Assembly: GCA_013334925.1 (NCBI GenBank)
Contig: JAAXWP010000018.1
Span: 1 to 44,563 of the forward strand
Length of the DNA stretch: 44,563 nt
From: Chlorobiaceae bacterium
GTDB lineage: Bacteria; Bacteroidota; Chlorobiia; Chlorobiales; Chlorobiaceae
Reading direction: 5' to 3'
Shown here: positions 3,653 through 44,563 of the stretch, in pieces
Numbering within the stretch: position 1 is the stretch's first letter
Layout of the letters: each line of letters starts with the position of its first letter
The notes under the pieces: generated by a model
Told to the model about the DNA's origin: nothing
The model's input: the letters and a program-made list of their open reading frames with translations, nothing else
Database searches by the model: none
Translations under genes and position numbers: made by a program

Positions 3653-5455
3653 ATGGCATACTACAAGAACATCTGTTTTGTCGAGGCGCCACAGGCGATT
3701 GTCACGCCATTTCCGAGATATATCAGCGATTGCATCGGGGTATGTTACCTGGCTGCCGCGGTCGAAGAGATCGTCGAAAGCATGGCGATGCCCGAAAACT
3801 ACTACAACGAAGGCATTTTCGACAGTTTCGAGCGATTGCTGAAACAACGATCTTTCGATCTGGTGGCCATCTCCTCGATGACCGGAGCCTTCAACAATGC
3901 GGTGCGGCTGGCACAAATAGCCAGGAAACACGGAATTACAGTCGTGATGGGCGGTTTTCATCCGACAGCCATGCCCGAAGAGGCGCTCGACCGGGGAGGC
4001 GCCGATCTGGTGGTGATCGGTGAAGGCGAAATGACCTTCAGGGAACTGGTGCTGCAGGGGCCATCGCGCAATATCAAGGGACTTGTCTGGAAGGAGAACG
4101 GCGAGTACATCCATACAGGAATGCGGGAGCTGATCACGGACATCGATTCGATCCGGTTACCGCTCCGCTCGATCCGTCCCGAACGGTTCGGAGAGAAAAG
4201 CGAAGATTACACCATCGACACCATCTACACTTCACGCGGCTGCCCGTGGGCCTGCTCCTTCTGTGCCAACGACAGGATGCACAAACAGTGGCGGGGCCGG
4301 AGCGCGGAGAATGTCGTCGAGGAGATCGCCCTGATTCACGATCCGAAGAAGAGAAAGCTCCTGAAAATCTGGGATGCGAACTTCCTGACCAACATCAGGC
4401 GAGCTGAGGAGATCTGCGACCTGATGATCGAGCGCGGCCTGACCAATTTCAGGATCATGACCGAGACAAGGGCCAAGGATGTGATTCGGGCCGAGCGGAT
4501 TCTGCCCAAACTCCACCAGGCCGGACTCAGAAAGGTGGGGCTTGGCATCGAAAGCCCCAATCCGGAAACACTCGTAAAAATGAACAAGCAGAACCGGCTC
4601 GACGATGTCGCCCGGGCTATCGGGCTGCTTGGGAAACTGCGCATCGGCGTCGATGGCTATTTTATTGTCGGGCACCACAGCGAAACCGAAGCTGATACCA
4701 TAACGTATCCGGAATTTGCCCGCTCGCTCGGCCTGAAAAATGTGCTGTTCTTTGCCATGACGCCCTATCCGGGCACGCAGATTTTCGAGGAGTACCGCAG
4801 CCAGGGCAACATCACCTCGTACGATTGGGATCTCTATAACAACTTCTGCCCGGTGGTGAAAACCGAGTCCATGAGCAATGAGCGGCTGATGACGATGATG
4901 GTGTACTGCTACGTGGCATTCTTCAATTACCGGACCCTGCTGAAACAGGAGAGCGAGCGTGGAATGGTATGGATTTTCCTGAGGGATCTCTTCCAGTTTA
5001 TCTTTGTGGCCCTGGTAAACCGGAGACTGAACGAACAGGAGATCGCATCAACGATCTACAACGCATTCGCATGTTATGCAAACACGGCTCCCCGCATCGA
5101 CTATCCATCAAAGAATACCCTGAAACGGCCGGTATCCCTGTTCCTTGAAGAGTCTGAGGGCAGGCGTATCGAGTTCCGTATCACCCAGGAGGCCGACCGG
5201 CGGATACTGACCATTCAGTCAGGTTCTTCAACCGCTCAGGATGGAGGACATGTTGTGAACATCAGAGCAGCGGTCGAAGCCGCATCATCGGTTTCCGAAG
5301 AGGTGTTCATGCGCTTTCTGTACAGGAAAGAGCTTATACGCAACAATCCATCCGTAAAGACCCGCCAGTGGCTGGCACTCGCTTCCGACCCCGACATCCG
5401 CCGCTCTGCCATCGCTTTTTATCGCCTGTATCGGACCTGCTCACGGAAAGAGTGA
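3653..5455 (+). CDS. Cobalamin-binding-domain radical SAM enzyme
   Basis: A 600-residue protein with the two-domain plan of class B/BchE-like enzymes. The N-terminal Rossmann-like B12-binding domain (about 5-150) includes VVMGGFHPTAMPEEAL and VIGEGE; a radical SAM barrel follows with CPWACSFC (Cys197, Cys201, Cys204) for the 4Fe-4S cluster. A helical C-terminal extension of about 170 residues follows. In Chlorobiaceae such proteins include BchE, the BChl side-chain methylases BchQ and BchR, and several uncharacterised paralogues. I cannot tell which this is, so no symbol is given. Its presence adds to the demand for B12. It is not in an operon; the start at 3653 lacks a strong ribosome site. 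Confidence 0.8.
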   Translation: MAYYKNICFVEAPQAIVTPFPRYISDCIGVCYLAAAVEEIVESMAMPENYYNEGIFDSFERLLKQRSFDLVAISSMTGAFNNAVRLAQIARKHGITVVMGGFHPTAMPEEALDRGGADLVVIGEGEMTFRELVLQGPSRNIKGLVWKENGEYIHTGMRELITDIDSIRLPLRSIRPERFGEKSEDYTIDTIYTSRGCPWACSFCANDRMHKQWRGRSAENVVEEIALIHDPKKRKLLKIWDANFLTNIRRAEEICDLMIERGLTNFRIMTETRAKDVIRAERILPKLHQAGLRKVGLGIESPNPETLVKMNKQNRLDDVARAIGLLGKLRIGVDGYFIVGHHSETEADTITYPEFARSLGLKNVLFFAMTPYPGTQIFEEYRSQGNITSYDWDLYNNFCPVVKTESMSNERLMTMMVYCYVAFFNYRTLLKQESERGMVWIFLRDLFQFIFVALVNRRLNEQEIASTIYNAFACYANTAPRIDYPSKNTLKRPVSLFLEESEGRRIEFRITQEADRRILTIQSGSSTAQDGGHVVNIRAAVEAASSVSEEVFMRFLYRKELIRNNPSVKTRQWLALASDPDIRRSAIAFYRLYRTCSRKE

Positions 5456-5873
5456 GGTTCAGGGCATAGCTGCAACATAGACTGTCAAACAATTTTACGT
5501 TTGTGAGCAGAAACAGGATACCCTGTGTATTGTCCAGGACAAGCTCGCCGGCAAGCCGCTGATTATCACCTGGGCTCTGATGAAGCACAAAGAGATGTTT
5601 GCCTATGAAAAGCTGAGCTATTGCTGACCAACGGCTTCCAGTGCATCGATTCGGCAGAGTAAACTGCGTTCTGACTAACGTTGATACAGCGAACTCGTGC
5701 GAGACATTTCAAGGCTCACACCCGAATCCTGGAACCCGGAAAACGGATACTTGACAGGCATTCATCAACATGTCGTATATCTGATAGAAATACAAAATAT
5801 ACAAGTGGTCACCTGTGAACATCCCGCCTCGTCAACACATGCTTTTTCAAGCGTTTGACAAGGTTATTCGCTG
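5456..5873. other. Gene-free spacer with possible transposase tail relic
   Basis: No intact gene is seen. A short + strand frame at about 5548-5625 (GKPLIITWALMKHKEMFA, then stop) has the feel of a transposase C-terminus, but I cannot assign a family. The part from about 5810 onward recurs, diverged, at 43167-43268 downstream of a cbiD tail remnant. A weak hairpin (TTTGACA/TGTCAAA at about 5856-5877) just after the cbiJ-cbiD stop could be the operon terminator. Confidence 0.35.
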
Positions 5874-7724
5874 TCAAAAAATATTTGCGTCTGGATTGTG
5901 CACTATAGGATGCCCCTCCATGTCAAACAGCACGAAGGTCAGCGGTGTGGTTGGAAGCCATTGCCGGCAAGCACTATGGCAAGCTTTGGCAATAGCGTCG
6001 TAAAATGGTTCATCGCTGCTAAAGGGGATGAGGTCGATCATGTTCCGGACGAGATGGAGATCGGCAAGCCGGCTGACAATTTCCGAAGTGTAACCGAGAT
6101 TTGTAGCAAGGGTAGCAAGCCATTGGGGATTAAGGTGGACAACGCGGCTGGAGAGGTCTGGCTGGCCCTGGGCAAGTTTGGTGGCTTTGGCAAGCATAAC
6201 GCCGACGACAACACGACTGAAACCGCCATATTTGTGCACGAGTTCGAGGGTGCGCCCGATGAAGTTACCGTAGTGGATGCTTGCCAGCTCGGGCAGATCA
6301 TGGTAAAGCGCGCGAAGATGGCGCTCGCCACGGAGACCGGAGGTGAGGGCTAAAGTAGTGCAGCCGTTGGCAGCGGCAACGCTGATGGACTGGTGAATAC
6401 TGGCGAGCCAGGCCTCCATCGAGTAGGGGACAACCTCACCGCTGGTGCCAAGGATCGAAATTCCACCGGTGATGCCGAGCCGAGCGTTCATCGTTTTGCA
6501 AGCGACAATATCCCCACCCGGCGCCGAAATCGTAACTGCTACAGCGTGACAAAGATTGCGTTGCCGCAGCTCTCCGACGATACACTCCCGAATCATCCTG
6601 CGCGGCACCGGGTTGATCGCCGGTTCGCCAGGTGGAATCTCAAGCCCCGGCAACGTGACTTTACCTACGCCCTCACCTTGCAGAAACAGCACCTTGTCCG
6701 GCTCACTGTCCGCCACGTGCGAAACTTCGCTGACAATCAAAATACCGTGCGTCACGTCGGGATCATCGCCTGCGAACTTCCGAACACCACAACGCGCCCG
6801 CCCTTTATCAGCGTTGTACGTAACAATCCCGAAGCTCGCTACATTACCGGACGGAAGAGTAATCGTAACCGAATCGGGCGCAGTGCCGTCCAGCAACATG
6901 ATCATCGCTGCTTTCGTAGCGGCAGCTGCGCAGGCTCCGGTGGTATAGCCCGTTCGGAGCGCCTTCAGAGCAGAGAGTTCCGTCAGGCTTTTTTCAAGTT
7001 CCCGGACGGAGAATACCACCGTATCGAAGGGCTGGGCCTGAGGGCGGCGGATGACGATGAGCGGAATCCCGCACCTTTCGGCGACCCGAAGCTTCGAAGA
7101 GAAAAAACCGGATTCACCACTCTCCTTGACGAGCAGGCAATCGACGCCATGCCCCCTCACCAGCGCTTCTAGTTCTTCGTCCGAACCGTCGGGACTCATC
7201 GGCAGCAGCTTGGCTTCGGGAAAGCCTTCTTGCCGCGCAAGCTCCATCGATGCCGTTGACGGCATGATGCGCAACAGCATATCGCGCCGCTCCCACCACG
7301 GACGCAACGGGGCGACGGACTGCACGCCGGTGAGCGCAAGCAGTTTAGCGGGATCGAGACGTTCGAGCAGCGTGATGGTTTCGGTGAAATTGGCGACGGA
7401 GTGGAGGCCCGCACTATCCGGCAAGGATGATGCTGGTCTGTCAAAGCGAATCAACCGGACGGCAAGACGGTTACAGACTTCGAATAGTGATTTGTGCAAT
7501 CGCGCTGCGAAAGGGTGCGCAGCATCAATGACGAGCCTGACACCGCGCGAAGAGACGAGCTCCGCAAGCGACGCATCGTCAAGTGCGCCATGGCGGAACT
7601 CGCCGTGCATGGCCGCGAACGGCTCAACGCGGGTTTTGGTCGAATATATGAAGAACATGGAGAGCCGGTCGAGCAAGGCTGCCGCCTGCCGCCCCTCGGT
7701 CGTGCCGCCGAAAAGCAGAATCAT
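5874..7724 (-). CDS. cbiJ-cbiD: CbiJ-CbiD fusion: cobalt-precorrin-6A reductase / cobalt-precorrin-5B C1-methyltransferase
   Basis: The start at 7724 is fixed by GAGGAGGACGGC directly before ATG; the open frame extends further upstream only over the previous gene. Residues 1-245 are CbiJ/CobK (opening MILLFGGTTEGRQ, then DAAHPFA at 67-73 and KESGESGFF near 200), the NADH-dependent reductase of cobalt-precorrin-6A. Residues 255-616 are CbiD, starting with the hallmark LRTGYTTGACAAAATKAA, which methylates C1 of cobalt-precorrin-5B to give 6A. The fusion therefore joins two successive steps in one chain. It is the last gene of the operon, 10 nt after cbiG-cbiF. A diverged copy of its 3' end lies at 41938-43268. 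Confidence 0.92.
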   Translation of the reverse strand: MILLFGGTTEGRQAAALLDRLSMFFIYSTKTRVEPFAAMHGEFRHGALDDASLAELVSSRGVRLVIDAAHPFAARLHKSLFEVCNRLAVRLIRFDRPASSLPDSAGLHSVANFTETITLLERLDPAKLLALTGVQSVAPLRPWWERRDMLLRIMPSTASMELARQEGFPEAKLLPMSPDGSDEELEALVRGHGVDCLLVKESGESGFFSSKLRVAERCGIPLIVIRRPQAQPFDTVVFSVRELEKSLTELSALKALRTGYTTGACAAAATKAAMIMLLDGTAPDSVTITLPSGNVASFGIVTYNADKGRARCGVRKFAGDDPDVTHGILIVSEVSHVADSEPDKVLFLQGEGVGKVTLPGLEIPPGEPAINPVPRRMIRECIVGELRQRNLCHAVAVTISAPGGDIVACKTMNARLGITGGISILGTSGEVVPYSMEAWLASIHQSISVAAANGCTTLALTSGLRGERHLRALYHDLPELASIHYGNFIGRTLELVHKYGGFSRVVVGVMLAKATKLAQGQPDLSSRVVHLNPQWLATLATNLGYTSEIVSRLADLHLVRNMIDLIPFSSDEPFYDAIAKACHSACRQWLPTTPLTFVLFDMEGHPIVHNPDANIF

Positions 7725-12980: not shown

Positions 12981-13015
12981 GTAATTATCGGTAACAGTAT
13001 CAACTCCTTTTTTTT

Positions 13016-13114
13016 CTGTCATTCTGAGTCCAACTCAGTCGAGCCAAGAATCCAGAGAAGTTTCGCAAAGTACTTTCAGAGAAACTGGAATCATCGCGTC
13101 ATTCAGAATGACAG
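13016..13114. repeat. 99-bp inverted-repeat element inside the cobalamin operon
   Basis: The ends are CTGTCATTCTGA (13016-13027) and its exact reverse complement TCAGAATGACAG (13103-13114). The interior includes GTCGAGCCAAGAATCC, typical of the dispersed 'TCATTCTGAG...AAGAATCC' repeats found in many bacterial genomes. It shares TTTTTCTGTCATTCTGAGTCC-like sequence with the element at 544-695. Transcribed, it would fold into a long imperfect hairpin between cbiK and cbiL. It is probably a passive insertion, but it could act as a partial terminator or an mRNA-processing site. Confidence 0.65.
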
Positions 13115-13141
13115 GAAACGAACACGACATGCCCCCACCCA

Positions 13142-19415: not shown

Positions 19416-19978
19416 GGGGACGTTGTACTGTAAGAGCAATAAAATCACTAAAAACAAACTCATGCGATAAATGGTGACACTGTACAGAAAAACCTTAACG
19501 AAATACACTCACAGGCGAGGCTTGAGCATATACGCCACTGCATTGGTGGTAACGCCTAACTGACGCGCCGTTTCGGCAAGTGACAGCCCATACTCCTCGA
19601 CAAACTTCACCGCCAGCCGTTTCCTCAGTTCCGGCAGCGGCGTTCTCCGGCTTCCAGACCGCAGAACAGTTAAGGATATCCCCTTCTCCTGACACAAGGA
19701 CTCGATGTCCTGCTTTACCAACTCCAGCCGTCTGGCACCAGATAATTGCTGCTTCACCGAAGCATCTGCCTGCTCAAGCAGAGAGCTGACGAACTCACCA
19801 CTCCCAAGCACCCTCGCATCGCTCATTTCCATCAGTCCCTGCTTTCGCATCGGCAGCACGTTCGACCAGCCACCATATGAGTGAACCAAGCCGCCACCGG
19901 ACAGCTCCGCCTCCCGATCCTGCGACAGTTCATCACTCAGGAACTCCAGATATGCCCAGATTGCCGAGTCCTCATGCG
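19416..19978 (-). pseudogene. REP-associated Y1 transposase element, copy A (3' half only)
   Basis: It begins with the element terminus GGGGACGTTGTACTGTAAG. The coding part (stop at 19509) holds only the C-terminal ~154 residues, from HEDSAIWAYLEFLSDEL to NAVAYMLKPRL, including the helix-turn-helix-like tail LSLAETARQLGVTTNAVAY. At 19978, immediately after TCATGCG, homology stops and the terminus of copy B begins 11 nt later. The HUH and Tyr catalytic region is missing, so no active enzyme can be made. The open frame to 20270 is a chance read into copy B. Confidence 0.85.
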
Positions 19979-19989
19979 AGGTCAAGCCA

Positions 19990-20998
19990 GGGGACGTTGT
20001 ACTGTAAGAGCAATAAAATCGAAAAAGAAATGACTCATACGTAAACATGGATACTGTACAGTACAAACTGTAACGAAATTCACTCACAGGCGGGACTTGA
20101 GCATGTACGCAACCGCGTTGGTGGTAACGCCTAACTGACGCGCCGTTTCGGCAAGTGACAGCCCATACTCCTCGACAAACTTCACCGCCAGCCGTTTCCT
20201 CAGTTCCGGCAGCGGAGTTCTCCGACTTCCAGACCGCAAAACAGTTAAGGATATCCCCTTCTCCTGACACAAGGACTCGATATCCTGCTTTACCAACTCC
20301 AGCCGTCTGGCACCAGATAACTGCTGTTTCACCGAAGCATCTGCCTGCTCAAGCAGCGAGCTGACGAACTCACCACTCCCCAGCACCCTCGCATCACTCA
20401 TTTCCATCAGCCCCTGCTTTCGCATTGACAGCACGTTCGACCAGCCACCATATGAGCGAACCAACCCGCCACCAGACAGCTCCGCCTCCCGATCCTGCGA
20501 CAGTTCATCACTCAGGAATTCCAGATATGCCCAGATTGCCGAGTCCTCATGCGTGCCGAAATGCTGCAACACATAGTGCCGATCGAACCAGTCGTACCGT
20601 ACCCGCTGCATGATACACGCATGACCTGCCCAGGGATATTCCTCGATTTCATCGAACGTCCGGACAACACCGGCTCTCAACGGGTTGAGATGGATATAGG
20701 CAACCAGTTTGATGAAGTAGGCGTCTTCTTCGCAGATGATCGACTTGTACCGGTTCTGGAACAGATGCCCGACGCGATGGTGTCGGCGGTTGTAGTACTG
20801 CGCATAACCAGACAGCAAACGGCGCATCAAGGTCGCGATGCCGCCAGAGCCACTCCTGACCAGCAGATGCACATGATTGCCCATCAGCGCAAAAGCGTAG
20901 ACCCCAGTACCTGTTGTCTTCGCCAAATCGCCAAACCGCCGCAGAAACTCGGTCCGATCTGCATCATCCTGAAATATCTCCCCTCGCTCGATCTCCTG
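19990..20998 (-). mobile_element. REP-associated Y1 transposase element, copy B (5'-truncated)
   Basis: The left terminus GGGGACGTTGTACTGTAAG is intact at 19990. The transposase (stop at 20084) matches the complete copies from IERGEIFQDDADRTEF onward, with the HUH motif NHVHLLVRSG and the Tyr region YAQYYNRRHHRVGHLFQNRY. The usual first ~20 residues (MPRG..LD..GTLHHVI.RG) and the right terminus are replaced by unrelated sequence from about 20998. A GTG at 21052 would allow a 322-residue product with a foreign N-terminus (MTMFIISIFSRGRFVCVLQ). Losing the first conserved strand and one terminus probably leaves it immobile. Confidence 0.85.
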
Positions 20999-29004: not shown

Positions 29005-29074
29005 TCTTGACCTCGTCCGCAACTGCGTTGGTGGCAACACCTAACTGACGAGCCGTTTCGACAAGTAATAGCCC
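29005..29074 (-). pseudogene. Short relic of a REP-associated transposase C-terminus
   Basis: On the minus strand the segment reads LLLVETARQLGVATNAVADEVK, slightly changed from LSLAETARQLGVTTNAVAYMLK of the intact copies. Only this last helix region remains. It lies about 30 bp outside copy C, separated by GTCAAAACAGGTCATACCA, so elements are again found in series, as with copies A and B. Confidence 0.75.
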
Positions 29075-29101
29075 CCTCGTTAGTCAAAACAGGTCATACC
29101 A

Positions 29102-30253
29102 GGGGACGTTGTACTGTAAGAGCAATAAAATCGAAAAAGAAATGACTCATACATAAACATGGATACTGTACAGTACAAACATCAACGAATTCCCGTCACT
29201 TGCGGGGCTTGAGCATATACGCCACTGCATTGGTGGTAACGCCTAACTGACGTGCCGTTTCGGCAAGTGACAGCCCATACTCCTCGACAAACTTCACCGC
29301 CAGCCGTTTCCTCAGTTCCGGCAGCGGAGTTCTCCGACTTCCAGACCGCAAAACAGTTAAGGATATCCCCTTCTCCTGACACAAGGACTCGATATCCTGC
29401 TTTACCAACTCCAGCCGTCTGGCACCAGATAATTGCTGCTTCACCGAAGCATCTGCCTGCTCAAGCAGCGAGCTGACGAACTCACCACTCCCCAGCACCC
29501 TCGCATCGCTCATTTCCATCAGCCCCTGCTTTCGCATCGACAGCACGTTCGACCAGCCACCATATGAGCGAACCAAGCCACCACCGGACAGCTCCGCCTC
29601 CCGATCCTGCGACATTTCATCACTCAGGAATTCCAGATATGCCCAGATTGCCGAGTCCTCATGCGTACCAAAATGCTGCAAGACATAGTTCCGATCGAAC
29701 CAGTCGTACCGTACCCGCTGCATGATACACGCATGACCACCCCAGGGATATTCCTCGATTTCATCGAACGTCCGGACAACACCGGCTCTCAACGGGTTGA
29801 GATGGATATAGGCAACCAGTTTGATGAAGTAGGCGTCCTCTTCGCAGATGATCGACTTGTACCGGTTCTGGAACAGATGCCCGACGCGATGGTGTCGGCG
29901 GTTGTAGTACTGCGCATAACCAGACAGCAAACGGCGCATCAAGGTCGCGATGCCGCCAGAGCCACTCCTGACCAGCAGATGCACATGATTGCTCATCAGC
30001 GCAAAAGCGTAGACCCCGGTGCCCGATGCCTTCGCCAAATCGCCAAACCGCCGCATAAATTCGGTCCGATCGGCATCATCCTTAAATATCTCCCCTCGCT
30101 CGATCCCCCGAAGGATAACATGATGCAACGTCCCCAGCGCATCCAGCCTCGCTCCCCTCGGCATATCGACCCTCCTGGTTTTGGCGGCTATCGTCCTTGA
30201 TTTATCAGCGTTCTATCAATGAAATACTTTTGCGCTTACCGTACAACGTCCCC
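29102..30253 (-). mobile_element. REP-associated Y1 transposase element, copy C (complete)
   Basis: This is the best-defined copy, 1152 bp. The left end is GGGGACGTTGTACTGTAAG at 29102. The right end (CTTACCGTACAACGTCCCC, 30235-30253) is its near-perfect inverse, and the similarity continues inward for a few more bases (GAGCAATAAAA against GCGCAAAAGTA). A subterminal palindrome TACTGTACAGTA lies between the left end and the gene. The only gene inside is the transposase. Flanks show no obvious target duplication, as expected for HUH/Y1 chemistry. Confidence 0.85.
29196..30164 (-). CDS. REP-associated tyrosine (Y1/HUH) transposase, copy C
   Basis: 322 residues. The N-terminal Y1 transposase domain opens MPRGARLDALGTLHHVILRG, carries the HUH motif in FALMSNHVHLLVRSG, and has the tyrosine-bearing helix YAQYYNRRHHRVGHLFQNRYKS and IHLNPLRAGVV. 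The C-terminal half (about 170-322) ends in a helix-turn-helix-like segment (LAVKFVEEYGLSLAETARQL). This is the plan of IS200/IS605-related REP-associated (RAYT) transposases, which nick and join single-stranded DNA at palindromic ends. The frame is intact and key residues are present, so it may be functional. The translation start follows an AGGAGGGTCGAT ribosome site. Confidence 0.92.
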   Translation of the reverse strand: MPRGARLDALGTLHHVILRGIERGEIFKDDADRTEFMRRFGDLAKASGTGVYAFALMSNHVHLLVRSGSGGIATLMRRLLSGYAQYYNRRHHRVGHLFQNRYKSIICEEDAYFIKLVAYIHLNPLRAGVVRTFDEIEEYPWGGHACIMQRVRYDWFDRNYVLQHFGTHEDSAIWAYLEFLSDEMSQDREAELSGGGLVRSYGGWSNVLSMRKQGLMEMSDARVLGSGEFVSSLLEQADASVKQQLSGARRLELVKQDIESLCQEKGISLTVLRSGSRRTPLPELRKRLAVKFVEEYGLSLAETARQLGVTTNAVAYMLKPRK

Positions 30254-31027: not shown

Positions 31028-34021
31028 ATGAAGAAAAAGGCAAGTATCCGGCATTCGAAAAATGAACCGGACGGCAGTGCTCATCAGCAACAGCCATCGA
31101 TCGCTTTTCCGGTCATCGGTATCGGCTCTTCTGCCGGTGGACTGGAAGCTCTGGAACTGTTCCTGAAAAATGTTCCCGCATCCTGCGGCATGGCTTTTGT
31201 GATTGTGCAGCATCTCGATCCGAACCATAAGGGGATACTGGTTGAACTGCTTCAGCGAGTAACCTCGATGCCGGTCGCCCAGGTCACCGATCGACTGAAA
31301 ATCGAGGCTGATCACGTCTATGTCATTCCTCCGAACCAGGATATGACGATACTACACGGGCACCTGCATCTGCTCGATATGGTCAAGCCGAGGGGACTGC
31401 GACTGCCCATCGACTTTTTTTTTCGCTCGATGGCTGACGACCTGCAACAGCACGCTATCGGCTTAATTCTTTCGGGTATGGGTTCCGACGGCACGCTTGG
31501 CCTCCGCGCCATCAAGGAGAAGGGCGGCAGTGTTTTCGTGCAGGATCCGGCCTCGTCGAAGTTCGACGGGATGCCTCGAAGCGCAATCGATGAAGGGCTG
31601 GCTGATGTCGTCGCTCCGGTCGAGGAGCTTCCGGCGAAGATCATCGCCTATCTGAAGCATATACCAATCATAAAAAGGTCCTCCGGAGCGCTTGAAACCC
31701 GCTCGCAAAACTCCCTTGAAAAAGTGGTTATTCTCTTACGTTCGCAAACCGGACACGATTTCTCGCTCTATAAGAAAAATACAGTGTACCGGCGTATCGA
31801 GCGGCGTATGGGAATACACCAGATTGAAAAGATCACCGATTATGTCCGGTTCCTCCAGGAAAATCCACATGAGATAGAGCTGTTGTTCAAGGAGTTGCTG
31901 ATTGGCGTGACGAATTTCTTTCGCGATCCCGCAGCCTGGGAAGTTCTGAAAAACAAGGCCATCCCGTCGATTCTCGCGGCCCGACCGTCTGGCGGAGTTC
32001 TACGGGCCTGGGTTGCGGGATGCTCCACCGGAGAGGAGGCCTATTCGCTCGCGATCATCTTCAGGGAGGTCATCGCTTCCCTCAAGCAGTCTGGCGCGTT
32101 CAAGCTCCAGATATTCGCGACCGATCTGGACAAGGATGCCATCGAAAAGGCCCGTCAGGGACTCTATCCGCCCAATATTTCAGCAGATGTTTCGCCGGAG
32201 CGCCTCAAGCAGTTTTTCGAGAAGGATGAACGGGGCTTCAGAATAACCAGAGATATTCGGGAGACCATCGTGTTTGCGCCCCATAATGTGATCATGGATC
32301 CCCCCTTCACCAAGCTCGACATTCTGGTCTGCCGCAACCTCCTGATTTATATGGAGCCGCAACTTCAGAAAAAGCTGCTGCCGCTCTTCCATTACAGCCT
32401 CAATCCGGGCGGGATGCTGTTTCTCGGGAGTGCCGAGACGGTCGGCCCGAACGGACATCTGTTCGATCAGCTTGACAGCCATAGCCGCATCTTCCGCCAC
32501 ATTCCCCAGGGGGCACGGCTGTCTCCCGTCGATTTTCCGGCACCGTTTGCCATGCCCACGCAGAATGCGGCGGACCTGCCCACCTCGCCACTCAAAGGAA
32601 GCGGCTCTGAACTCAACTTGCAGATGATCACCAATCAGCTCCTGCTCCAGCATTTTGCCGCAGCAGCGGTACTGACAAACAACGAGGGCGATATCATCTT
32701 TATCAGCGGTCGGACAGGCAAATACCTGGAACCGGCTGCTGGCAAAGCTAATCTTAATATTTTCGCCATGGCCCGCGAAGGGCTTCGCTACGAGCTGAGC
32801 GTGCTTTTTAACAGCGGACTCCGCCAGAAAAAGGAGATGAGCAAAAAGGGACTGACCGTCGGCACGAACGGCGGCTCGCAGATGGTGGATCTCACGGTAA
32901 AACCTGTCGATAAACCGGACTGCCTCAAAGGCACCGTCCTGATCGTTTTTGCCGATGTCGCCGAAAAGCATGCCGGCGCTGGCCATCGCCATGCCTCGTT
33001 TGCAGCGGACGACGGCGGACGGGTCAAGTCGCTCGAAGATGAACTCAGGCAGGCCAAGGATGAGATTTTCACCATCCGGGAGGAGATGCAGACCTCGCAG
33101 GAGGAGCTCAAGTCGACAAACGAGGAGATGCAGTCGGCCAATGAGGAGCTGCAAAGCACAAACGAGGAGCTGACCACCTCCAAGGAGGAGATGCAGTCAC
33201 TGAATGAGGAGTTGCAGACGGTCAACCAGGAGCTGCAATCGAAGGTTAGCGACCTTTCGCAGGCAAATAATGATATGAAAAACCTGCTGAACAGCACCGA
33301 CATCGCGACCCTGTTCCTCGATGATGAGCTCAACGTACGTCGCTTCACCACCCGCACGGCAACACTCATCAAACTTATCCCGAGTGACATTGGACGACCC
33401 ATAACCGACATCGTGACCGATCTGGAGTATCCCGCCCTTGCGGACGATGCCCGGGGCGTGTTGCATAACCTCGTCTTCAGTGAGAAACAGGTTACGACCA
33501 GAGACGGTCGCTGGTTTACGGTGAAAATCATGCCATACCGCACCCAGGAAAACCGGATCGACGGCTTGGTCATCACCTTCAACGACATTACCACCTCCAA
33601 GCAGTTCGAAGAGAGCCTTCGCCTGAGCGAGGAAACCTGCCGGTTTTTGCTCAGTTCAACCCCGCTTGGCGCCCTGCTTCAGAATTCAGATGGAAAAATC
33701 GTTATGGCAAATCGGGAAGCCGAGCGCATTACTGGAATTACCATGGAAGAGCTCTGCGGGAAAACGATGGCGGAACTTCGCTGGAACCTGTACCGGGAAG
33801 ACGGCTCGGCGCTTTCGCCCGCAGAGCATCCCTCGATGATCGCGCTGCGCTCTGGCAAGCCTGTCAGCAACATCGTGATGCGCATGGAAATGCCTTACGG
33901 AACCCCCCCCAAATGGATCAGGGTCAGTGCCATTCCGCATGTGCCGGATGGCTCGGCAAGAACCTTTCATGTCTATACGACGTTTATTGAAATCAATGCC
34001 CCCCAGCAGACCTCAGGCTAA
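31028..34021 (+). CDS. CheB-CheR-PAS fusion (chemotaxis methylesterase/methyltransferase-like signalling protein)
   Basis: 997 residues. The CheB methylesterase domain (about 26-205) has the nucleophile in GIGSSAGGLEAL, the His in VIVQHLDPNHKG and the Asp in LSGMGSDGTLG. The CheR domain (about 225-490) has the SAM motif VAGCSTGEEAYSLAI and LVCRNLLIYME. Next come a linker domain, a long coiled coil (about 667-748, repeating EEMQS.NEELQST.EEL) and two PAS domains (about 740-990). No CheB-type receiver precedes the esterase. No chemoreceptor, CheA or CheW is nearby, so the target of methylation is unknown. The hybrid kinase gene starts 24 nt downstream, so the two form an operon. Confidence 0.92.
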   Translation: MKKKASIRHSKNEPDGSAHQQQPSIAFPVIGIGSSAGGLEALELFLKNVPASCGMAFVIVQHLDPNHKGILVELLQRVTSMPVAQVTDRLKIEADHVYVIPPNQDMTILHGHLHLLDMVKPRGLRLPIDFFFRSMADDLQQHAIGLILSGMGSDGTLGLRAIKEKGGSVFVQDPASSKFDGMPRSAIDEGLADVVAPVEELPAKIIAYLKHIPIIKRSSGALETRSQNSLEKVVILLRSQTGHDFSLYKKNTVYRRIERRMGIHQIEKITDYVRFLQENPHEIELLFKELLIGVTNFFRDPAAWEVLKNKAIPSILAARPSGGVLRAWVAGCSTGEEAYSLAIIFREVIASLKQSGAFKLQIFATDLDKDAIEKARQGLYPPNISADVSPERLKQFFEKDERGFRITRDIRETIVFAPHNVIMDPPFTKLDILVCRNLLIYMEPQLQKKLLPLFHYSLNPGGMLFLGSAETVGPNGHLFDQLDSHSRIFRHIPQGARLSPVDFPAPFAMPTQNAADLPTSPLKGSGSELNLQMITNQLLLQHFAAAAVLTNNEGDIIFISGRTGKYLEPAAGKANLNIFAMAREGLRYELSVLFNSGLRQKKEMSKKGLTVGTNGGSQMVDLTVKPVDKPDCLKGTVLIVFADVAEKHAGAGHRHASFAADDGGRVKSLEDELRQAKDEIFTIREEMQTSQEELKSTNEEMQSANEELQSTNEELTTSKEEMQSLNEELQTVNQELQSKVSDLSQANNDMKNLLNSTDIATLFLDDELNVRRFTTRTATLIKLIPSDIGRPITDIVTDLEYPALADDARGVLHNLVFSEKQVTTRDGRWFTVKIMPYRTQENRIDGLVITFNDITTSKQFEESLRLSEETCRFLLSSTPLGALLQNSDGKIVMANREAERITGITMEELCGKTMAELRWNLYREDGSALSPAEHPSMIALRSGKPVSNIVMRMEMPYGTPPKWIRVSAIPHVPDGSARTFHVYTTFIEINAPQQTSG

Positions 34022-36705: not shown

Positions 36706-36921
36706 ATGTCGATAAATAACCGACACGTATGCTATTCCAAAATATCAGAGGCCAAATCCAGGTTATTGGTTCGCTATTTTGCTGCCAATCTTGAGGCGAC
36801 TCAAATCTCTTCGTTCACTGAGCTGAACCGCAATACCGCGAACCGGTACCTCACTGCTATTCGAGAACGTATTGCCGAATATTGCGATAGTCATTCCATT
36901 AACCAAACCAGGGAACACTCT
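36706..36921 (+). pseudogene. IS1595-family transposase, N-terminal fragment
   Basis: The first ~65 residues (RHVCYSKISEAKSRLLVRYF then NRNTANRYLTAIRERIAEYC) match the N-terminal region of IS1595-type transposases. Homology ends near EYCDSHS and the reading then passes into the end of the REP-associated element copy D. The catalytic DDE domain is absent, so this is a dead fragment. Confidence 0.75.
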
Positions 36922-38005
36922 ACAGCACAAACATCAACTAATTCCCGTCACTGGCGGGTCTTGAGCATATACGCCACTGCATTTGTGGTAACGCCTAACT
37001 GACGCGCCGTTTCGGCCAGTGACAGTCCATACTCCTCGACAAACTTCACCGCCAGCCGTTTCCTCAGTTCCGGCAGCGGAGTTCTCCGGCTTCCAGACCG
37101 CAAAACAGTTAAGGATATCCCCTTCTCCTGACACAAGGACTCGATATCCTGCTTTACCAACTCCAGCCGTCTGGCACCAGATAATTGCTGCTTCACCGAA
37201 GCATCTGCCTGCTCAAGCAGCGAGCTGACGAACTCACCACTCCCGAGCACCCTCGCATCACTCATTTCCATCAGACCCTGCTTTCGCATCGACAGCACGT
37301 TCGACCAGCCGCCATGAGACCGAACCAACCCGCCACCAGACAGCTCCGCCTCCCGATCCTGCGACATTTCATCACTCAGGAATTCCAGATATGCCCAGAT
37401 TGCCGAGTCCTCATGCGTGCCGAAATGCTGCAAGACATAATTCCGATCGAACCAGTCGTACCGTACCCGCTGCATGATACACGCATGACCAGCCCAGGGA
37501 TATTCCTCGATTTCATCGAACGTTCGAACAATACCGGCTCTCAACGGGTTGAGATGGATATAGGCCACCAGTTTGGTAAAGTAGGCGTCCTCTTCGCAGA
37601 TGATCGACTTGTACCGGTTCTGGAACAGATGACCGACGCGATGATGTCGGCGATTGTAATATTGCGCATAACCAGACAGAAAACGGCGCATCAACGTCGC
37701 GATACCGCCAGAGCCACTCCTGACCAGCAGATGCACATGATTGCTCATCAGCGCAAAAGCGTAGACCCCGGTACCCGATGCCTTCGCCAAATCGCCAAAA
37801 CGACGCAGAAACCCGGTCCGATCTGCATCATCCTGAAATATCACCCCACGCTCGATCCCCCTTATGATAACATGATGCAACGTCCCCGGAGCATCCAGCC
37901 TCGGTCCTCTCGGCATATCGTTCCTCCCGGTTTTAGCGGCTATCGTCCTTGAATCATCAGCTTTCTCTCAATGAAATACTTTTGCACTTACCGTACAACG
38001 TCCCC
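36922..38005 (-). mobile_element. REP-associated Y1 transposase element, copy D (left end lost)
   Basis: The right terminus (CTTACCGTACAACGTCCCC) ends at 38005. On the left, homology to copy C begins only at ACAGCACAAACATCAAC (36922), so the left terminus is missing. CCAGGGAACACT just upstream may be what remains after an internal deletion of the end. The fragment abuts the IS1595 relic. With one terminus gone the element is probably not self-mobile, although its transposase gene is intact. Confidence 0.8.
36948..37916 (-). CDS. REP-associated tyrosine (Y1/HUH) transposase, copy D
   Basis: 322 residues, full length, nearly identical to copy C apart from scattered substitutions (MPRGPRLDAPGTLHHVIIRG at the start, DLAKASGTGVYAFALMSN, C-terminus YMLKTRQ). 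The HUH motif NHVHLLVRSG and the YAQYYNRRHHRVGHLFQNRY helix are intact. It could supply transposase in trans to copies that keep both ends. Confidence 0.92.
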   Translation of the reverse strand: MPRGPRLDAPGTLHHVIIRGIERGVIFQDDADRTGFLRRFGDLAKASGTGVYAFALMSNHVHLLVRSGSGGIATLMRRFLSGYAQYYNRRHHRVGHLFQNRYKSIICEEDAYFTKLVAYIHLNPLRAGIVRTFDEIEEYPWAGHACIMQRVRYDWFDRNYVLQHFGTHEDSAIWAYLEFLSDEMSQDREAELSGGGLVRSHGGWSNVLSMRKQGLMEMSDARVLGSGEFVSSLLEQADASVKQQLSGARRLELVKQDIESLCQEKGISLTVLRSGSRRTPLPELRKRLAVKFVEEYGLSLAETARQLGVTTNAVAYMLKTRQ

Positions 38006-41937: not shown

Positions 41938-42008
41938 TTATTCCCAAACCACCGCACTCCCCTCCATATCGAACAGCACGAAGGTCAGTGGAGTGTATGG
42001 AAGCCATA
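41938..42008 (-). pseudogene. Relic of a cbiD 3' end (left fragment)
   Basis: On the minus strand it reads WLPYTPLTFVLFDMEGSAVV then WE and stop, almost the same as WLPTTPLTFVLFDMEG near the C-terminus of the CbiJ-CbiD protein at 5874. About 50 bases align closely with 5911-5963. Upstream coding sequence is gone, replaced by the inserted transposase element at 42021. The different last residues show it is not a recent exact duplicate. Confidence 0.7.
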
Positions 42009-42020
42009 AGTTCAACTCAA

Positions 42021-43133
42021 GGACGTAAGTGACTGAGGTAACGAAAGAACACAAACAAGAATCGTCGTGATTCTGCCCCTTCATCGACGAAGCAGCTGGC
42101 TGACGCCGGCCCTTGAAATCCCCAGCATCCTTGCAACATTCGCATGCGACATACCCATTTCTGTCACAAATTTCCTGGCCAACACCGCCCGTAATGCAGA
42201 ATACTCCCGGCTTCGACAACCTGCCTGAAGTGCCGCCTGCGTCAATCCACTTTTATCACAATGGTATTTGAGCTGTTCTTCAGCATCGGCAATCCTCATC
42301 CGCATTGGCAGCATTTCCTTTTGTGCAGCCCCGATCTCTCCCAGCACATCTTCCACAAACTCACCACCACCCAATATCCGCTCATCGCTGAACTGCCGGT
42401 CCCCGCGTTTTCTCATCGACAGAACCTCGGACCACCCGCCTGCCGAACGCACCAGACCGCCTCCGGTCAACTCAGGCTGACGACCCATATGCATTTGATC
42501 CTGAACGAACTCAAGATATTTCACCCGTGCACTCCCGACTGTTCTTCCGAATTGTTGCAGGACATGCTCCTTATCCTGCCAGGCATATTCAGCCAAACCC
42601 ATGATCGCAGAATGTCCACTCCACGTATATCGCCCCAGCTCTTCAAGAGAAGTCACTAGCCCTACCCGTAATGGATTCAGATGGATATAACTGACCAGCT
42701 TGACAAAATAGGGTTCCTCTTCACACAGAATCGACTTGTAACGATTCTGAAACAAGTGACCAGTCCGATGATGCCGTTTGTTGAACCTTACCGAGTAGCC
42801 AGTCAACACGCACCTCATGAATGTTGGCAATCCCGACGACCCGCTCCGAAGCAACAGATGCGCATGATTGCTCATCAGCGCCCAGGCATATATCAACGTT
42901 CCGGTTTTGCCTGCCGCTTTGCCAATCCTTTTCACAAAATCAAGTCGATCTTCATCATCAACTGCAATCTCCGTGCGTTCGATACCTCGAACCATCACAT
43001 GATGCAGCGCTCCGGGCGTATCCAGTCTCGCTCCTCTCGGCATTGCGTCTTTCCCTTTGCGTTAACTTCCACGATTTCTTCACTTATCGAAATTTAACAG
43101 ACAAATATTTAGTTACCTTAGTCACTTACGTCC
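42021..43133 (-). mobile_element. Second-type Y1 transposase element with 22-bp inverted ends (copy E)
   Basis: GGACGTAAGTGACTGAGG (from 42021, continuing TAAC to 42042) matches in reverse 43112-43133 with one mismatch in 22 bp. The single gene inside is a diverged relative of the copies A-D transposase. The ends differ from those of A-D but share the opening GGACGT. Outside, CTCAAGG on the left is mirrored by CCTTGAG a few bases beyond the right end. Confidence 0.85.
42081..43043 (-). CDS. REP-associated tyrosine (Y1/HUH) transposase, second subfamily
   Basis: 320 residues. It shares the architecture of copies A-D: MPRGARLDTPGALHHVMVRG start, HUH motif as NHAHLLLRSG, Tyr-bearing helix around FNKRHHRTGHLFQNRYKS, IHLNPLRVGLV, and a C-terminal helix-turn-helix-like end (MSHANVARMLGISRAGVSQL). 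Overall it is only moderately similar to them, so it is a separate lineage. The frame and key residues are intact. Confidence 0.92.
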   Translation of the reverse strand: MPRGARLDTPGALHHVMVRGIERTEIAVDDEDRLDFVKRIGKAAGKTGTLIYAWALMSNHAHLLLRSGSSGLPTFMRCVLTGYSVRFNKRHHRTGHLFQNRYKSILCEEEPYFVKLVSYIHLNPLRVGLVTSLEELGRYTWSGHSAIMGLAEYAWQDKEHVLQQFGRTVGSARVKYLEFVQDQMHMGRQPELTGGGLVRSAGGWSEVLSMRKRGDRQFSDERILGGGEFVEDVLGEIGAAQKEMLPMRMRIADAEEQLKYHCDKSGLTQAALQAGCRSREYSALRAVLARKFVTEMGMSHANVARMLGISRAGVSQLLRR

Positions 43134-43166
43134 CTTAGTGCCTTGAGGTACAAGATTCATTGCCGG

Positions 43167-43268
43167 TGAGCAACCCGCTGCTTCAATTCGTGCTTTTTCA
43201 AGCACTTGGCAGGGCTGTACGTTATCAATAAATCTTTGCGTTTGGATATTTAACTATAGGATGTCCCT
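43167..43268 (-). pseudogene. Relic of a cbiD 3' end and downstream sequence (right fragment)
   Basis: The segment aligns with about 5810-5914, the sequence downstream of and including the last codons of cbiJ-cbiD. The minus-strand reading is GHPIVKYPNAKIY and stop, against GHPIVHNPDANIF and stop. It contains exactly the end that the left fragment at 41938 lacks, but lies on the opposite side from where a simple insertion would place it. Confidence 0.65.
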
Positions 43269-43290: not shown

Positions 43291-44211
43291 CTATGGCTGA
43301 TTGCCCTGCCATGTATCCGAAGCAATCCAGCTTTCTCCATAGCTCCCTTTTTCGATCAAGGCTTTGACAATTGGGGATAGAAATAGTTCCAACTGCTGCA
43401 CGATCTGATTGAAGTCCTCAGGCAAAAATTCAAGTCCAATACGCTTCCTGAAAGCAGTCCATTGCACCTGCTTTTCTTCGATAAACTTTCGGGAAAAAAT
43501 CTCCTGAGGTTCAACAAGTATTGTCCCCCGTTGCTCAAACGTCTGCTTGATGGCTTCGGCAAGCCTGCTGCCTTCAAAGTTATACTGGCGTGACAGCATC
43601 CAGATATCATAGAAGTCTTTCAGCCTGCTGTTGAGTATCCCAAGCTTGGCCATCACCTCAAACTTTTCGGCAATCATGCTTTCCCTGCTGTAACAGTACA
43701 TCTCCGCCGGAGGAAAGTTCAGCAATGATGGTAACGATTCCTGTACAGGCTCAGGGAAGACCTTGTCTCCAAATCCAATATCAAGCTGGATGGTCAGACG
43801 GGCTTCATCGAGATGTCCACGAAATCTTACACGCAATCCCTCATAGTCCGCATCTTCAGTTATCGGCTCTATAGTGATTGAATCCGGATCGAAAATGATC
43901 CCATCTTCCTGCTCTTCGACGGCCAAAACCTGATGGATAATGGTCGTGATATTCTCCGGGGCGTTTGCGGTTCTTCCCAGCATATCGATATCCATGGTAG
44001 GCCTTGCCAAGGGAGCTTGCCAGGCGCGAAGCAGCAATGCGCCCTTGAGAATGAAGCGATCTGCGAATGAGAAAACCGACAGACGATAGAGAAAGCGCTC
44101 CATGGCATAGTATTGCAACAGCTCCTGAAAAGGCCTCTTATCCTGTCTTGCCTTGTTCAAGAGCCGTTGCCTGACCGAAGCTCCGATATTTCTGATCACT
44201 TTTCCACTCAC
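43291..44211 (-). CDS. AbiEii/AbiGii-type nucleotidyltransferase toxin
   Basis: 306 residues from the GTG at 44211, which overlaps the antitoxin stop as GTGA and follows GGAGGCAACGCT. The nucleotidyltransferase core is visible as FILKGALLLRAW followed by RPTMDIDMLG (Asp74, Asp76 as metal-binding pair). The later motif IAEKFEVMAKLGILNSRLKD then FYDIW is also typical of the AbiEii family. Such toxins are the killing half of type IV-style AbiE toxin-antitoxin and phage-abortive systems. It is probably regulated by its partner AbiEi. Confidence 0.88.
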   Translation of the reverse strand: MSGKVIRNIGASVRQRLLNKARQDKRPFQELLQYYAMERFLYRLSVFSFADRFILKGALLLRAWQAPLARPTMDIDMLGRTANAPENITTIIHQVLAVEEQEDGIIFDPDSITIEPITEDADYEGLRVRFRGHLDEARLTIQLDIGFGDKVFPEPVQESLPSLLNFPPAEMYCYSRESMIAEKFEVMAKLGILNSRLKDFYDIWMLSRQYNFEGSRLAEAIKQTFEQRGTILVEPQEIFSRKFIEEKQVQWTAFRKRIGLEFLPEDFNQIVQQLELFLSPIVKALIEKGSYGESWIASDTWQGNQP

Positions 44212-44563
44212 AGCGTTGCCTCCAGATAGGGTTTCATAACGGAGAAAACACGGCACGCTTCTGCATACTGCATCAGTGCATGAAGGTTCTTTGGCTTTCG
44301 CTGTCGATACAGTTTGAGGGCTTCGAGCACAATATCCATCCCGATCCTGTTACGGAATCTGAAGCAATCGACAAGCGTCTTTTCCGGACTGTAGATCTTC
44401 ACCGGGACACCGTCGAGCTGATGTGTTTCAATGCCGAGCTTGAAACAAGCATGTGAAAACCGGAAAATCGTAACCGGAGGATACTCGATTCTTGGTTGTT
44501 CGGCACCCTTTTCAAGCGCAAGAGAGACGCTGTGCGGAACCTGGGTGGTCATCTCGTGAAAGG
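44208..44563 (-). CDS. AbiEi-type antitoxin, C-terminal part (cut by window edge)
   Basis: The frame is open to the window end; reading beyond the internal ATG at 44552 gives FHEMTTQVPHSVSLALEKG, typical of the middle of AbiEi antitoxins, so the true start (and the winged-helix DNA-binding domain) lies outside. The visible C-terminal domain includes IYSPEKTLVDCFRFRNRIG and LEALKLY, as in the family. It should neutralise the adjacent toxin and repress the operon. Confidence 0.82.
   Translation of the reverse strand, partial: FHEMTTQVPHSVSLALEKGAEQPRIEYPPVTIFRFSHACFKLGIETHQLDGVPVKIYSPEKTLVDCFRFRNRIGMDIVLEALKLYRQRKPKNLHALMQYAEACRVFSVMKPYLEATL

Follow-up and report, generated by a model that had tools for sequence, protein, structure and literature searches.

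Genes for RAYT-like transposases that carry long inverted ends (TIRs) were named TIRYTs and TIRtrons by Di Nocera et al. in 2013 (PMC3733652). According to a 2018 survey, most TIRYTs fall in subclass 2.1 and have a C-terminal HTH, the published signature of class 2 TnpA being a Y---NP motif together with HUH; class 2 TnpA is low in copy number, and formal evidence for its autonomous mobility is absent (PMC6006769). For tnpA-REP, a 2021 paper reported no evidence of mobility and described single-copy, housekeeping-like genes (PMC8266576).

The unit considered here, copy C, lies in a stretch of 44,563 bp that was analysed as a whole and is referred to below as the window; it belongs to a 2.73-Mb draft genome. 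This genome contains a gene for the FMO protein (PF02327, 737 bits), which marks its host as a green sulfur bacterium; we take it to be one of the Chlorobiaceae. Copy C is most likely a mobile element of the TIRYT/TIRtron kind, autonomous and IS-like. That kind is already known, and what is new is the comparative evidence for movement of the whole unit.

Copy C and related copies in the window

The features of the window on which the analysis is based are listed here by coordinates and strand.

29102-30253, minus strand: copy C, complete element (TIRtron) of 1152 bp, inverted ends plus transposase gene
29196-30164, minus strand: transposase gene of C, 322 aa, Y1_Tnp domain plus C-terminal HTH
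29102-29125, plus strand: TIR of C on the gene 3' side
30230-30253, minus strand: TIR of C on the gene 5' side
29091-29101, no strand: about 11 bp outside the 3'-side TIR, common to A, B and C, perhaps the real outer edge
29018-29074, minus strand: fragment of an older copy beside C, HTH-coding part, 86% match to 29220-29276
19416-19978, minus strand: copy A, gene-3' half with TIR, 93% identity to C
19990-20996, minus strand: copy B, lacking the 5' end but with TIR and most of the gene, 96% identity to C
36917-38005, minus strand: copy D, gene-5' TIR and an unbroken 322-aa frame, without the 3' TIR, 94% identity to C
42015-43139, minus strand: copy E, complete, second subfamily, 32-bp TIRs 88% complementary, 52% amino acid identity
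3204-3500, minus strand: relic, internally deleted C-like copy with one recognisable TIR

The arms of C, GGGGACGTTGTACTGTAAGAGCAA (29102-29125) and GGGGACGTTGTACGGTAAGCGCAA (30230-30253), are identical at 22 of 24 positions, and their score of 18 as inverted ends lies beyond the best value (12) in 300 Markov shuffles of both flanks, which bears out the near-perfect inverted ends claimed in the earlier note. With up to two mismatches, GGGGACGTTGTAC occurs nine times in the window, compared with 0.54 expected occurrences. The same termini or their remains had been said to recur with A, B, D and the relic. Each of these four does retain one end (the gene-3' end in A and B, the gene-5' end in D), but none keeps both, and in the window both ends are present only in C and in the second-subfamily copy E. 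Within this one genome, copies A, B, C and D are 92-97% alike, while in the relic pieces of the gene 3' and 5' regions of C directly abut and the middle is gone. Copy A ends where B begins; given the older-copy fragment beside C and the start of B inside A, the insertions look nested. Copies A to D, which share one orientation, all fall within a 19-kb part of a single contig, and local duplication could therefore have contributed. Furthermore, AGGTCAaaCCAG, the stretch of about 11 bp just beyond the 3' tip, is common to A, B and C, and the left edge of the unit may therefore be 29091 rather than 29102. A reading of D as an insertion inside an IS1595-like gene was dropped, as the left flank alone matches.

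The transposase of C matches Pfam Y1_Tnp at 4.8e-13. Its C-terminal HTH gives weak Pfam matches at residues 283-318, below curated cut-offs, and an AlphaFold model built from seven sequences (mean pLDDT 78) places three C-terminal helices at 282-318. The model fold is matched best by E. coli-type TnpA-REP 4er8 and next by the TnpA of IS608 and ISDra2; a sequence search of solved structures gave no convincing relative. In the set of family copies, H60, H62, Y119, N123 and P124 are each at least 95% conserved, and the HUH plus Y---NP signature is present. The NCBIfam RAYT model NF047646 gives 58.2 bits and so stays below its cut-off of 80. Local hairpins were sought in the 70 nt at either end on both strands, and none was significant (mean z -0.23 to 0.04); the joined ends fold strongly, as expected of any TIR pair. 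Copy C is not a classical RAYT; with its C-terminal HTH, long TIRs and lack of end hairpins, it is better filed as TIRYT/TIRtron than under the label "REP-associated" used in the earlier note.

Several other repeats and genes of the window were also recorded. The two flanks of E (41959-42007 and 43163-43268) are also found, in swapped order and joined to each other, at 5812-5961 as well as in several relatives, and an AbiEii gene (43291-44256) adjoins E. Short repeats with TGTCATTCTGAGTC occur in both orientations at 599-629, 13011-13041 and 13103-13127 and resemble published CGTC-tagged REP-like repeats. An equation of the TIR tip CGTCCCC with the published CGTC-tagged repeats was dropped, since those have AT-starting stems and a CCA tail. 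In a CheB/CheR-PAS gene, 21-bp tandem repeats (33080-33247) encode a coiled-coil-like stretch.

Distribution, ends and insertion sites across Chlorobiaceae

The protein search for relatives covered 121 genomes, our own included, with one genome per species. Relatives were found in 38 of them (37 besides our own). These genomes all belong to two genera of a single family, and each has at most nine matches at E 1e-30. The units are patchily distributed among genomes, and the two genera are intermixed in the tree of copies. For the family set, 74 copies were extracted together with their flanks. A motif-free inverted-repeat search recovered the tip GGGACG in most copies with good TIRs. Both TIRs were present in 42 copies, a count for which the tip itself was among the selection criteria; these copies have a median length of 1118 bp and mostly unrelated flanks, and just outside the tip they show TTAG by majority at both ends. 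The tip consensus across the family is (T)TAGGGGACG.

Copies of the same subfamily have unrelated 5' flanks, and the homology among them sets in at the TIR tip or no more than about ten bases from it. Many units consist of the gene and its TIRs alone, with unrelated flanks on both sides. Divergence of the TIRs follows that of the transposase (Mantel r 0.59, and 0.61-0.65 for the HTH part), whereas divergence of the flanks follows it weakly or not at all (0.20 and 0.06). The two arms of a unit show differences at 20% of sites, compared with 56% between units. As a sign of solo TIRs in this genome, the 24-bp TIR pattern has 14 matches and the reversed control none; nine of the 14, the relic included, lie outside copies A to D. 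Sites after terminators account for nine of 39 5' flanks and three of 79 distant controls, and a preference of the elements for such sites is suggestive only.

Unoccupied sites were found in relatives. At locus L089, which has a tRNA gene on one side and a conserved gene on the other, the element is absent in four relatives, and at L105 in one, with both flanks syntenic in each case; the junctions could not be placed because the intergenic bases are too diverged. At L037, L038, L058 and L085, the 5' flank (85-98% identical) continues unbroken in relatives. The L037 unit interrupts an IS3-type orfA that is whole in three relatives, the L038 unit stands at the end of a methyltransferase-like gene, and the L085 unit lies within the end of a Fic-like gene, these gene names having been read from sequence alone, with no family search. 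The 5' junction of L058 is base-precise against two relatives: homology ends at CTCCTGAA, and the unit begins with CTTAGGGGACG. At the other three loci, 8-16 or more extra bp separate flank and tip. The second junction was not placed because the downstream sides are not colinear with relatives. The search for empty sites called for in the earlier note thus succeeded in part: unoccupied sites exist, one with an exact 5' junction, but none exact at both ends was obtained among the relatives, because the comparison covered one genome per species. For C and D, no base-precise empty site was found in sister species, as the flanks were not alignable across the site.

Two observations concern repeats in the flanks. 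The 3' flank of L058 (G034:C45:143835-143874) holds a palindrome of about 40 bp, GCATAGATAATCGA...TCGATTATCTATGC, which occurs on both strands in many Chlorobiaceae genomes. The contig-end copies L074, L082 (G041) and L102 (G025) share the flank TAACtGGCATCCCTACCGtGAC, possibly a repeat or an assembly artefact.

Near-identical copies in unrelated flanks, unoccupied syntenic sites and ends that diverge together with the transposase agree with the repeated whole-unit movement proposed earlier. It is well supported, as far as sequence comparison can indicate, that the unit moves whole within and between Chlorobiaceae genomes, leaving decayed copies and solo ends, and the dozens of relatives have the appearance of a mobile family of units, not of a domesticated host gene. 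It is quite improbable that we are dealing with a domesticated, mainly vertically inherited RAYT whose extra copies arose through homologous recombination or segmental duplication: the published picture of tnpA-REP as single-copy and housekeeping-like (PMC8266576), the arrangement of A to D on one contig and in one orientation, and insertions common to sister species (for example, L095/L097 and L089/L096) would fit such a gene, whereas homology that stops at or near the TIR tips, sites unoccupied in relatives, patchy distribution and interrupted genes argue against it.

Neighbouring genes

Several copies stand beside genes of other kinds. A block of the transposase gene, a PIN-domain toxin and a small partner (VapBC-like) is shared over 1.92 kb by L061, L085 and L087, in three genomes; a 177-aa gene with no Pfam match is common to L037, L038 and L039, and a GNAT gene to L053 and L069. 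At L043, the 3' TIR is repeated 1.2 kb downstream, around MauE/DoxX and rhodanese genes, and HigA-like and other modules also adjoin several copies. At one locus, a relative carries an FGE-like gene in place of the unit, and these regions may thus be islands with a gene traffic of their own. The protein in question, at L271 (G040:C39, about 4779-5600), is a 272-aa FGE-like protein ending in RVHRGGGWDYDAENCRSAYRSSRVPDDRDIDYGFRLVF, where the relative has a TIRtron with VapBC; it is reminiscent of the variable proteins of diversity-generating retroelements. The neighbouring genes are reported as an observation and are not claimed as proven cargo because other modules, possibly mobile on their own, are present in the same regions. 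That the TIRYT gene is itself a passenger of larger islands or cassette arrays, moved with toxin-antitoxin-like modules by another recombinase, would suit this company of VapBC and HigA-like modules and the downstream flanks that are often not colinear with relatives, but we consider it equally improbable given the codivergence of TIRs and transposase, the retained catalytic residues and the many units that are just gene and TIRs.

Possible mechanism and comparison with known systems

Under the preferred reading of an autonomous TIRtron, the transposase would cut one DNA strand via Tyr119 by Y1 chemistry, with which motif and fold are compatible, and the HTH would recognise the TIR. The two TIRs would pair on one strand and bring the ends together, and the TIR-TIR stem would take the place of the hairpins that lie subterminally in IS200/IS605 and of the REP hairpin in classical RAYTs. 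A further proposal, which we regard as tentative and rather unlikely, is that TIRtrons are fully mobile single-strand transposons whose TIRs anneal into what amounts to an outsized REP-like hairpin, the loop of which holds the transposase gene; the TIRtron tip TTAG-GGGACG may be compared with the GTAG tag of REPs. If this were true, TIRtrons would be a living intermediate between IS200/IS605 and the domesticated RAYT/REP systems, and they might also acquire neighbours such as toxin-antitoxin pairs. A multi-copy, TIR-bounded and apparently recently active family also offers a direct way to test for mobility, how the ends are recognised and how REP/RAYT domestication arose.

Among the known systems, IS200/IS605 elements (IS608, ISDra2) share the Y1 HUH domain and IS-like behaviour with the present family, which differs in lacking subterminal hairpins and in having long TIRs and an HTH extension. 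RAYT/TnpA-REP of the E. coli type has the closest solved fold (4er8) and likewise carries the Y---NP motif; in contrast, the units described here have no end hairpin, are multi-copy with TIRs, and score below the NCBIfam RAYT cut-off. The TIRYT/TIRtron resemblance extends to a Y1/HUH RAYT-like transposase, long TIRs instead of REPs, a C-terminal HTH, solo TIR repeats in the genome and a TIR starting with GGGG. The TIR here, GGGGACGT, fits the published GGGGWSAS at six of eight positions, and that motif is not strictly defining because it was published for some TIRYT TIRs only. Relative to class 2, subclass 2.1, as described so far, this family differs in that a genome has several near-identical copies, that sites are unoccupied in relatives and that genes are interrupted.
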